Assembly: GCA_013112535.1 (NCBI GenBank)
Contig: JABFGI010000002.1
Coordinates: 372,001-436,000, forward strand
Reading direction: 5' to 3'
DNA: 64,000 bases
From: Pseudomonadota bacterium
GTDB taxonomy: Bacteria; Pseudomonadota; Gammaproteobacteria; Eutrophobiales; Eutrophobiaceae
Both the position numbers and the translations under genes were made by a program. Below are positions 25,214 to 37,276 of this stretch, one piece after another. The first letter of the stretch is position 1, and each line of letters opens with the position of its first letter. The notes beneath the pieces were generated by a model. That model did not search any database, was not told the DNA's origin, and saw nothing but the letters and a program-made list of their open reading frames with translations.

Positions 25214-25246
25214 AAAAAAAAACCCGTATAACTAATGTTATACGGG
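25214..25246 (-). terminator. Intrinsic terminator after the phasin gene
   Basis: A perfect 10-bp stem (CCCGTATAAC with GTTATACGGG, 4-base loop; 25223-25246) followed on the minus strand by nine T (25222-25214). It separates the phasin gene from phaE-phaC, which therefore need their own promoter in 25140-25213. Confidence 0.92.
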
Positions 25247-25287
25247 CTCTCAATATATACAAGGAGGGGGTAAAAATTTCCTGGATA

Positions 25288-25668
25288 TTATGCTGCTGCT
25301 TTTTTGGTCACTTTCTTTGCAACAGGTTTAGCTTCAGATGAAACTTCATCAACTGCTTTCTCAATCCAACTAACGACTTCATCACGTGAGTCAGTTAATA
25401 CATCTGCAGTTTTACGGCTGTATTCAATAACCTTACTACCATACTCATTTGCAAAATCTGCTTCAGCAGTCATTGCATCTTTATAGTTAGTAGTACTACT
25501 CAATGTTTTGGTTAATTCAACGCCAGTTTCAATACTGTATGTTGCCAATCCAATTTGTAATTCAGATAATTCTTTCAACGCTTTACTGTTGATTGCAGCT
25601 AATTCCTGCATAGCGTTGTATGACGATTTACCCATTTCAGTCATTTTTTCAATAATTTCATTTTGCAT
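25288..25668 (-). CDS. Phasin family protein
   Basis: 126 residues. Small amphipathic, helical phasin-type protein (QELAAINSKALKELSELQ, then TTNYKDAMTAEADFANEYGSKVI) with an Ala/Lys-rich tail (KPVAKKVTKKAAA). Phasins coat PHA granules and set their size and number. GGAG precedes the ATG by about 8 bases. It has its own terminator and lies just upstream of phaE-phaC, and a TGC-rich repeat typical of PHA regulation lies upstream. Assignment rests on length, composition and neighbours. Confidence 0.88.
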   Translation of the reverse strand: MQNEIIEKMTEMGKSSYNAMQELAAINSKALKELSELQIGLATYSIETGVELTKTLSSTTNYKDAMTAEADFANEYGSKVIEYSRKTADVLTDSRDEVVSWIEKAVDEVSSEAKPVAKKVTKKAAA

Positions 25669-33771: not shown

Positions 33772-35583
33772 TTGGATCATAATATCTTAATTTCGATTGC
33801 CAGCATTGGTGTATTAGGCATTGGTTGTCAATGGCTCGCATGGTGGGCACGCCTTCCTGCAATACTGTTTCTTTTAATTGGTGGAATTATAGTCGGTCCA
33901 GTACTCGATTTAATTGAACCGGATATTTTATTTGGCGACTTGTTGTTTCCTATTGTTTCTTTGTCTGTCGCAGTTATTTTGTTCGAAGGAAGCCTGACTC
34001 TTAAATTTGAAGATATTCGTGGTCATGGCAAAACAGTAAGAAATTTAATTTCAATTGGCGCAATTATTACCTGGATAATAATTGCCTACAGCACTCACTA
34101 TTTAATCAACTTTCCTTTTGAACTCGCATTTTTATTTGGTGCTGTAGTTATTGTTACGGGCCCAACCGTCATAATTCCTATGTTAAGAACGGTTCGCCCT
34201 AATGCCAAAATTGCTAACGTACTTCGTTGGGAAGGTATCGCGATTGATCCGCTTGGTGCTTTACTTGCTGTTCTGGTTTTCGATTTTATTATTTCAGGAC
34301 AACAAAATAATGCGATAAATATAATTATCCTGACTTTTGCGAAAATTATATTAACGGGATTTTCTATCGGTTTTATTAATGGCTGGTTTTTAGGTGAATT
34401 ATTACGCAAGCAACTTGTACCTCAATATTTACGTAATGTGATTACACTTATTACTGTGGCAGCAGTCTATGTTTTATCTGACACAATAGAGCATGAATCT
34501 GGATTGCTTGCTGTCACTATTATGGGCATGACCATGGCAAATATGAAAGACATGGATATCGGCGACATACTTGATTTCAAGGAAAGCTTGAGTGTTCTGT
34601 TAATTTCGGGACTTTTTATTATTCTCGCTGCACGAATTGAATTTTATCAATTTATTCAAATAGGCTGGCCCGCCTTCGGTATTCTTGCTATCACGATGTT
34701 AATCGCAAGACCCATTTCAGTATTTGTCTCTTCTATCGGTTCAGATTTGTCGATTAATGAAAAACTGATGATCTCCTGGATTGGACCACGCGGTATTGTT
34801 GCAGCAGCTGTATCCGCACTATTTGCATTACGTCTGGAAAATGCTGGCTATCAGGAAGCAACATTACTCGTCCCTCTTACCTTTCTAATTATCATTGGAA
34901 CCGTAGTCATTCAAAGCGCAACGGCAAGTTTTATTGCTGTTTTGTTAGAAGTACGCGAACCCTCTCCAACCGGTATTTTAATTATTGGAGCGGGTAATGT
35001 AGCACGTGCAATTGGCAAGGAACTTCAGGCACAGGGTTTTAAAGTAGTATTAACTGACAGCACTTGGGAAAATACCAGTCTGGCCAGAATGGAAGGCTTG
35101 GAAACGTATTATGGTAATCCCATTTCAGAGCATGCAGATCGGCACCTTAACTTACTCGGTTTGGGAAAAATATTGGCTATGTCGGGTCGAGGAAGCCTGG
35201 ATGCGCTGGCTTGCCTACGTTTCAAATCTGAATTTGGCGTGAATAATGTCTATGAATTAAAGACCTCTCGAGAAAAACATATTTCTGATAAACATATAGT
35301 TTCAACCCGGCACCGCGGTTATGAACTATTTGGAGAAGATATTGATTATGGCAATCTGGCCTATCGTTTAAGAAATGGCGCTGAATTAAAGAGCACTCAA
35401 TTAAGTGATGAATTTACATTTGAACAGTATCTGGAAAAATATGGAGATCGTGTTATTCCAATGTTTGCCGTTGATAACAAGCAACGATTACAGATTTTTG
35501 TATCAAATGGGGAGATGAAACCAGAATCAGGATGGACTATTACAGGGATGATAGAAGCCGAATTACCAACAACAAACTCTTAA
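33772..35583 (+). CDS. Cation/proton antiporter (CPA family) with TrkA-N/RCK domain
   Basis: 603 residues. About 12-13 membrane segments (1-390) with VTGPTVIIPMLRTVRP and GIAIDPLGALLAV, the conserved Asp-bearing ion-binding helices of monovalent cation/proton antiporters. It is followed by an NAD-binding Rossmann domain (about 400-520; ILIIGAGNVARAIGKELQ) and a short C-terminal part. The start appears to be TTG at 33772. It probably exchanges Na+ or K+ for protons, with nucleotide gating. The CRP sites and sRNA candidate lie directly downstream. Confidence 0.9.
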   Translation: MDHNILISIASIGVLGIGCQWLAWWARLPAILFLLIGGIIVGPVLDLIEPDILFGDLLFPIVSLSVAVILFEGSLTLKFEDIRGHGKTVRNLISIGAIITWIIIAYSTHYLINFPFELAFLFGAVVIVTGPTVIIPMLRTVRPNAKIANVLRWEGIAIDPLGALLAVLVFDFIISGQQNNAINIIILTFAKIILTGFSIGFINGWFLGELLRKQLVPQYLRNVITLITVAAVYVLSDTIEHESGLLAVTIMGMTMANMKDMDIGDILDFKESLSVLLISGLFIILAARIEFYQFIQIGWPAFGILAITMLIARPISVFVSSIGSDLSINEKLMISWIGPRGIVAAAVSALFALRLENAGYQEATLLVPLTFLIIIGTVVIQSATASFIAVLLEVREPSPTGILIIGAGNVARAIGKELQAQGFKVVLTDSTWENTSLARMEGLETYYGNPISEHADRHLNLLGLGKILAMSGRGSLDALACLRFKSEFGVNNVYELKTSREKHISDKHIVSTRHRGYELFGEDIDYGNLAYRLRNGAELKSTQLSDEFTFEQYLEKYGDRVIPMFAVDNKQRLQIFVSNGEMKPESGWTITGMIEAELPTTNS

Positions 35584-35607
35584 AACCGCATTAATAAAGA
35601 ATTATTT

Positions 35608-35623
35608 TGTGACTGTTGTCACA
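35608..35623. promoter_or_regulatory. CRP/Vfr-type binding site 1
   Basis: TGTGA-N6-TCACA, a perfect match to the CRP core, inside a longer palindrome (ATTTTGTGAC/GTCACAAAAT). Its centre is 50 bases (about five helical turns) upstream of site 2. Confidence 0.65.
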
Positions 35624-35657
35624 AAATAACGACAGACAGACATTGTTCACATTAAAT

Positions 35658-35673
35658 TGTGAGATCCATCACA
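35658..35673. promoter_or_regulatory. CRP/Vfr-type binding site 2
   Basis: A second perfect TGTGA-N6-TCACA, centre 35665.5. A TAGAAT -10-like box at 35695-35700 predicts a start near 35707, which puts this site at about -41.5, the classic class II CRP-activator position. Confidence 0.7.
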
Positions 35674-35694: not shown

Positions 35695-35700
35695 TAGAAT
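35695..35700 (+). promoter_or_regulatory. -10 element of the sRNA candidate
   Basis: TAGAAT, one change from TATAAT. No good -35 hexamer lies 16-18 bases upstream, as expected for a promoter that needs an activator at -41.5. Confidence 0.5.
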
Positions 35701-35706
35701 TCAAAC

Positions 35707-35813
35707 CACTAGCAAACAACATATATCCTCCTTAAAAATGATTGTGAGCAAAGTCTGGAGTTACACATAACCCTCCTCCCCCATGTGTGTTATGAGTCTC
35801 CAGGCTTTTTTTT
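35707..35813 (+). ncRNA. Candidate CRP-activated small RNA with two anti-Shine-Dalgarno segments
   Basis: A predicted transcript of about 107 bases between the antiporter and the convergent kinase gene, with no protein frame worth calling. Near its 5' end, TCCTCCTTA (35726-35734) is complementary to a perfect Shine-Dalgarno. The 3' part folds into a long terminator stem (arms about 35752-35771 and 35789-35806, with internal mismatches) whose loop carries CCCTCCTCCCCC (35771-35782), followed by eight T (35806-35813). C/U-rich single-stranded loops plus a U-tail are the layout of trans-acting repressor sRNAs. The start is inferred from the -10 box and CRP spacing. I do not recognise it as a named family. 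Confidence 0.6.
35752..35813 (+). terminator. Strong intrinsic terminator of the sRNA candidate
   Basis: Outer stem CTGGAG (35755-35760) with CTCCAG (35798-35803), extended outward by T-G, G-C and A-T pairs. Inside, either CATAAC/GTTATG or ACACAT/ATGTGT can pair. It ends in GCTTTTTTTT. On the minus strand there is no T-run, so it does not serve the convergent kinase gene. Confidence 0.85.
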
Positions 35814-35845
35814 ATGCCTGTAAGAAATTACCCGTAATATTCTGC

Positions 35846-37036: not shown

Positions 37037-37276
37037 TTAAGCCGAATCACAGGCTTTTAATGCACGATAAGCCTTACTACCTTTATCAACCGTTGCTCCT
37101 GATTCTGAACCATCGGTAAATATCGTGGCATTATCTTCATCACGATATTTATGGCCTTCTTCCCAATTTTTTACATCCGCATAGAATTCAAGTGCAGCAC
37201 GCATAATCCGGTTTTGCTTTTCCAGTTTATCGATCTGTTCCGTTTGCCCACTATCAGATTTACTACCAAATATCAT
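37037..37276 (-). CDS. Small conserved-looking protein of unknown function
   Basis: 79 residues. A short coiled-coil-like N-terminus (EQIDKLEKQNRIMRAALEFYADVKNWEEG) is followed by an acidic segment and a C-terminal GSKAYRALKACDSA. The ALEFYAD...NW and terminal RALKAC pattern recalls small proteins often found in phage and prophage genomes, but nothing else here is phage-like. GGAG precedes the ATG by 7-8 bases. Function not assignable. Confidence 0.6.
   Translation of the reverse strand: MIFGSKSDSGQTEQIDKLEKQNRIMRAALEFYADVKNWEEGHKYRDEDNATIFTDGSESGATVDKGSKAYRALKACDSA

Follow-up and report, generated by a model that had tools for sequence, protein, structure and literature searches.

The DNA analysed here (the window) is a stretch of 64,000 nucleotides, in which a plus-strand antiporter gene ends with its stop codon at position 35583 and a Ser/Thr kinase gene on the minus strand points into the gap from the opposite flank, so that the two flanking genes are convergent. 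The antiporter is related to potassium/proton and Na+/H+ antiporters, with scores below the curated cut-offs. A conserved 79-amino-acid protein with no NCBIfam match is encoded at 37037-37276 on the minus strand, and in several relatives it is found beside the kinase gene and the small RNA described below.

The gap contains an intrinsic-terminator hairpin on the plus strand (35750-35808), with outer arms at 35750-35760 and 35798-35808 (11 nt, 91% complementary), inner arms at 35763-35771 and 35789-35797, and a U8 tract at 35806-35813 that is read from the sequence. A preliminary description of this DNA had reported an interval free of genes that ends in a strong terminator on the plus strand (a stem plus eight T), and the arms and the T run confirmed this. 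The same description named the antiporter as the nearest preceding plus-strand gene, about 170 bases back, and the distance from the antiporter stop codon was indeed 167 nt to the terminator stem and 123 nt to position 35707. A simple terminator scan did not pick up the hairpin in the window, because the largest loop allowed in the scan was 8.

It is very probable that plus-strand positions 35707-35813 form a genuine small RNA gene. The predicted transcript of about 107 nt would start at a position deduced from the promoter geometry and end at the U tract. The folding energy of the RNA (35707-35816) was -24.7 kcal/mol, compared with -15.5 kcal/mol (SD 2.9) in dinucleotide shuffles (z = -3.2), and 0/200 shuffles equalled it in stability. 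Two segments of the plus-strand RNA are predicted to be exposed. The 5' anti-Shine-Dalgarno segment (UCCUCCUUA, 35726-35734) is predicted to be single-stranded with an unpaired probability of 0.8-1.0, and the C/U-rich segment in the terminator loop (CCCUCCUCCCCC, 35771-35782) has an unpaired probability of mostly 0.7-1.0. Both TCCTCCTTA and CCCTCCTCCCCC, which had been proposed for the 5' region and the terminator loop, respectively, are thus present at these positions and predicted to be mostly unpaired. The loop segment is the most conserved element of the RNA and is near-invariant in the alignment of relatives, with a mean unpaired probability of 0.97 for the loop over 28 relatives.

CRP sites upstream of the predicted start

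The preliminary description had missed the promoter, which contains two perfect CRP sites on the plus strand. The distal site (TGTGACTGTTGTCACA, 35608-35623, centre 35615.5) and the proximal site (TGTGAGATCCATCACA, 35658-35673, centre 35665.5) have 0 mismatches and are 50 bp apart; no other perfect copy of the CRP consensus TGTGA-N6-TCACA occurs in the 64-kb window. The distal site sits within a 12-4-12 perfect palindrome (35602-35629). Downstream of the proximal site is the plus-strand -10 hexamer TAGAAT (35695-35700; TAGACT in many relatives), which ends exactly 34.5 bp past the proximal CRP centre. In class II CRP promoters the CRP site is centred at -41.5, and CRP bound at this position normally activates transcription. 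Judged from the sequence, the proximal site and the -10 hexamer are arranged as in a class II CRP promoter, a spacing that predicts a start at 35707, with the proximal site at -41.5 and the distal site at -91.5. The 5' end at 35707 that had been claimed earlier is therefore predicted independently by the CRP-site geometry. Since both flanking genes point into the gap, there is no protein gene that the two predicted CRP sites could serve.

The CRP sites are retained in relatives. Within 170 bp upstream of the RNA, 28/28 loci of the family had a CRP site with one mismatch or none (0.13 loci expected from shuffles) and 21/28 had a perfect site (0.01 expected), these counts coming from loci that share ancestry and are not independent events. 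When other families are included, 29/37 loci have a -10 hexamer that ends exactly 34.5 bp from the CRP centre; in one genus (L058 and L061) the CRP site is placed further upstream. The spacing between the distal and proximal sites in relatives is mostly 49-53 bp and otherwise 41-43, 39 or 32 bp, which corresponds roughly to whole helical turns, the periodicity test being not sharp. A clear distal site was absent in L048, L058, L061, L065, L080, L081, L086 and L087.

The genome encodes Hfq and a CRP orthologue that scores above the NCBIfam cut-off. The nearest solved structure for the CRP orthologue is Vfr (273 bits), and the recognition-helix stretch SREMVGRVLKSLEE is identical to that of Vfr. 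Among the family genomes, the RNA was matched by the covariance model R1 (see below) in 26/41 with CRP over the cut-off versus 2/12 without (Fisher p = 0.005, uncorrected for kinship), and both of the latter two genomes are incomplete and have CRP-bearing sisters. Some genomes having CRP gave no detectable copy of the RNA.

Conservation of the RNA and its locus

By DNA search, most genomes of the genus carry the element, in agreement with locus sequences taken from public genomes. We built the covariance model R1 from 12 sequences; it matched 28/53 family genomes in 14/18 genera and scored the window RNA at 91.3 bits (E 2e-19), and a second model, R2, gave 77.1 bits. A divergent copy (L034 in G019) was spotted by eye and then scored by R2. 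The covariance search for a conserved stem and C-rich loop in relatives, which the preliminary description had suggested as a check, thus found both conserved, and because of this conservation the element is more than a chance arrangement of letters.

In 28 aligned family copies, 16/18 modelled hairpin pairs had changes on both sides. Compensated cells numbered 103 versus 33.7 in shuffles, and the covariation score was 0.562 versus 0.238 in shuffles (0/500 as high) and at most 0.144 in slid-partner controls, in an alignment that was fitted to the model and hence leans towards the structure. An independent MAFFT alignment of 12 sequences gave a covariation score of 0.248 versus 0.161 (0/500), and its share of paired cells was also above the controls. 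In the family alignment the loop CCTCCTCCCCC hardly varies while the letters of the terminator stem turn over, and the CCUCC of the 5' segment is retained in nearly all relatives.

In the family the RNA is located after fabB, usually with the antiporter gene between them; in several genera without an adjoining antiporter it directly follows fabB or a small conserved gene. In another family (L074, G185) the order is antiporter, small RNA and lexA, which is the same neighbourhood. R2 matches in further gammaproteobacterial families (L075, L077, L079, L080 and L081) keep the CRP site, the -10 hexamer and the C-rich loop in differing contexts, and in G178 the RNA adjoins ispG, a gene that is also near the locus in the window. 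Two loci from two other families (L076 and L079) have the RNA beside a similar response-regulator gene, with CRP sites in L079 and none found in L076. Without any model, the pattern of a CRP site, CCTCC and CTCCC at set distances was found in 9/369 genomes of the class, and the reversed pattern in 0. Among these, G157 and G363 belong to yet another family, in which the layout is the same, and G342 and G281 may be chance matches.

Additional copies and related elements were also observed. In G011, two near-identical copies on contigs C6 and C2 (L009 and L011), neither adjoining an antiporter, represent a duplication or an assembly artefact. In G049 (L057, 1501-1582 and 1732-1809), tandem RNAs with C-rich loops follow the antiporter, the second of which resembles Pseudomon-1/ErsA (RF01719; 27.5 bits, E 6e-4 for 141 nt, mainly the terminator). 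In G019, a second hairpin with the C-rich loop GCCTCCCCCCCC (L034, 3664-3736) lies downstream of the copy with predicted CRP control. In G010, where the antiporter is interrupted and no small RNA was detected, there are about 45 copies of GGGGAGGACGATATATG, apparently the start of a transposase gene. Paralogues were sought in the genome of the window itself, and none was convincing (best other match E 0.23). On the minus strand of the window, a phasin-like gene (25288-25668) is followed by a 3' UTR region (25215-25273) that has ACCCCCTCCTTG and a terminator and lies before a phaE-like gene; this region matches R2 weakly (21.4 bits, E 0.0035) and is possibly a second C-rich RNA.

Taken together, the putative dedicated promoter, the compensated terminator stem, the near-invariant C-rich loop, the conserved locus and the lack of a conserved reading frame strongly support a small RNA gene at this locus, and we have high confidence that an uncatalogued, conserved family of small RNAs linked to CRP, as defined by these comparisons, is real.

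Possible function and alternative readings

We consider it likely that the locus is a stand-alone small RNA gene under the control of a Vfr-like CRP and cAMP, the product of which masks the ribosome sites of a set of mRNAs via two exposed anti-Shine-Dalgarno segments. When cAMP is high, CRP would bind at -41.5, aided by another dimer bound near -91.5, and would activate rather than repress transcription from 35707. The RNA of about 107 nt would terminate at its own terminator near 35813 and accumulate upon induction by CRP-cAMP. With the help of Hfq, which may bind the RNA, the 5' segment UCCUCCUUA and the terminator-loop segment CCCUCCUCCCCC would pair with G-rich ribosome-binding sites, such that the exposed CCUCC and CCUCCUCCCCC cover the ribosome sites and block the translation of the mRNA set in a CyaR-like manner. 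The predicted pairing energy was -13.8 kcal/mol for the 5' segment with the canonical site UAAGGAGGA and -30.2 kcal/mol for the loop with GGGGGAGGAGGG. We hold anti-Shine-Dalgarno repression as the mechanism with moderate confidence.

The targets are the weakest part of the case. We scanned 12 genomes of the genus for GGGGAGG-N3-11-ATG and obtained a few weak candidates, mostly unshared, with no convincing conserved target in these genomes. Near a start codon, one candidate alone recurs: G004, G005 and G010 share a gene whose product looks secreted or outer-membrane-like (GGGGAGGG(T/C)GTCCAAATG). It counts little because G010 has no small RNA detected by the model. Candidates in single genomes, named only from their sequences, were PQQ-dehydrogenase-like in G006 and thiolase-like in G001. 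Shared GGGGAGG matches inside coding regions were dismissed as targets. The preliminary description had proposed a trans-acting repressor of many mRNAs. Conservation bears out the small RNA; repression is its most likely function in view of the exposed anti-Shine-Dalgarno segments, and the scan offered weak candidates for the many mRNAs.

The narrow yield of the GGGGAGG scan, with no broad target set, and a loop conserved beyond the need of a general anti-Shine-Dalgarno segment would also fit a CRP-controlled RNA that acts by another route, such as protein sequestration, an RNA sponge or the control of one or two specific mRNAs via the terminator loop. We regard this as unlikely, since the RNA has two separate exposed segments complementary to ribosome sites, as in the known repressors CyaR and sX13 (PMC11795201, PMC3771888). 

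A reading in which the hairpin simply ends the antiporter mRNA, as its 3' UTR and terminator, and perhaps stops the kinase transcript of the opposite strand as well, with no independent RNA, is far less probable. Although no plus-strand gene lies between the antiporter stop codon and the terminator 167 nt further on, a plain terminator loop need not stay CCTCCTCCCCC while the stem letters change. Moreover, CRP sites and a -10 hexamer stand in fixed register between the antiporter and the hairpin in relatives, genera without an adjoining antiporter still have the RNA, after fabB or p141, and in other families it sits in unrelated contexts. 

We give almost no credence to a short peptide gene, either MIVSKVWSYT followed by a stop codon, from an ATG right after the 5' anti-Shine-Dalgarno segment, or a peptide encoded on the minus strand behind AAGGAGGA: such short ATG frames exist, and read in reverse complement the 5' segment resembles a ribosome site before an ATG, but neither frame is conserved in relatives, stops and lengths differing in L005, L014 and L017 and the minus-strand ATG being absent in L012 and L013.

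If the small RNA works as a CRP-controlled repressor, it would connect carbon status, through cAMP-CRP, to translation well beyond the enterobacteria. It represents a deeply conserved family, with a regulator and pairing segments that are readable from the sequence, in uncultured gammaproteobacteria in which RNA regulation is little known, and the covariance model provides a direct route to annotating it.

Comparison with known small RNA families

An Rfam search with the window RNA, at gathering scores and up to E = 10, returned only chance matches to eukaryotic families, and a literature search of partial coverage found no paper describing this RNA. The features of Hfq-dependent small RNAs are present, namely an intrinsic terminator with a U tract, an exposed conserved pairing segment and an hfq gene in the genome, and the RNA may be an Hfq ligand. 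Control of many small RNAs by CRP is well documented in Yersinia (PMC4376681). 

Several known RNAs share the C-rich pairing element. The ar14/CcsR ('cuckoo') RNAs of alphaproteobacteria (RF02344 and RF02791) resemble the window RNA in hairpin loops that expose CCUCCUCCC. To our knowledge, no CRP promoter belongs to the definition of that family. The window RNA had no match to RF02344 or RF02791, and membership was rejected; one distant locus (L081) scored 25.8 and 19.3 bits with these models, far below the gathering scores of 58.8 and 65.3. Membership in Pseudomon-1/ErsA was likewise rejected, as the window RNA had no match and the second tandem copy in L057 scored below the gathering score of 50. 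The weak similarity of single loci to the ar14, CcsR1 and ErsA models most simply reflects a common C-rich hairpin. The sX13 RNA of Xanthomonas represses mRNAs with G-rich ribosome sites via C-rich loops, a pattern like that proposed here, but it has three stem-loops and acts independently of Hfq (PMC3771888). It is not known to be under CRP-type control. In Vibrio, the Hfq-dependent VcdRP pairs via a seed of four consecutive cytosines with the translation initiation sites of carbon-uptake mRNAs. The short C-rich seed aimed at initiation sites is similar; however, VcdRP is repressed by CRP, encodes a peptide and is 306 nt long (PMC8672173).

The closest parallel is CyaR (RyeE, RF00112), an enterobacterial intergenic small RNA that depends on CRP and Hfq and has both a conserved terminator loop and a conserved seed, which base-pairs with the ompX Shine-Dalgarno sequence (PMC11795201). 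E. coli CyaR contains ACCTCCTT, and its terminator loop includes TCTCCC. The window RNA has a comparable seed in UCCUCCUUA, which contains CCUCC, is predicted to be single-stranded and would be directed at Shine-Dalgarno sites, and its two perfect predicted CRP sites in class II geometry may make its promoter CRP-dependent. On the other hand, E. coli CyaR lies at yegQ-yegR, and the C-rich loop of the window RNA is much longer. RF00112 (gathering score 47) matched 0/369 genomes of the class, including that of the window, and the same model found E. coli. Membership was rejected in both directions, as RF00112 missed the window RNA up to E = 10 and the new model gave E. coli CyaR 6.0 bits, for the terminator only. 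Thus, the RNA likely belongs to a separate, unlisted family that resembles CyaR in its presumed way of working. We think it rather improbable that the RNA is an old, general CRP-controlled anti-Shine-Dalgarno RNA of the gammaproteobacteria, of which CyaR and perhaps other small RNAs with C-rich loops are diverged descendants and not independent inventions. The RNA makes it testable whether the strategy of CyaR has an ancient origin or evolved repeatedly.
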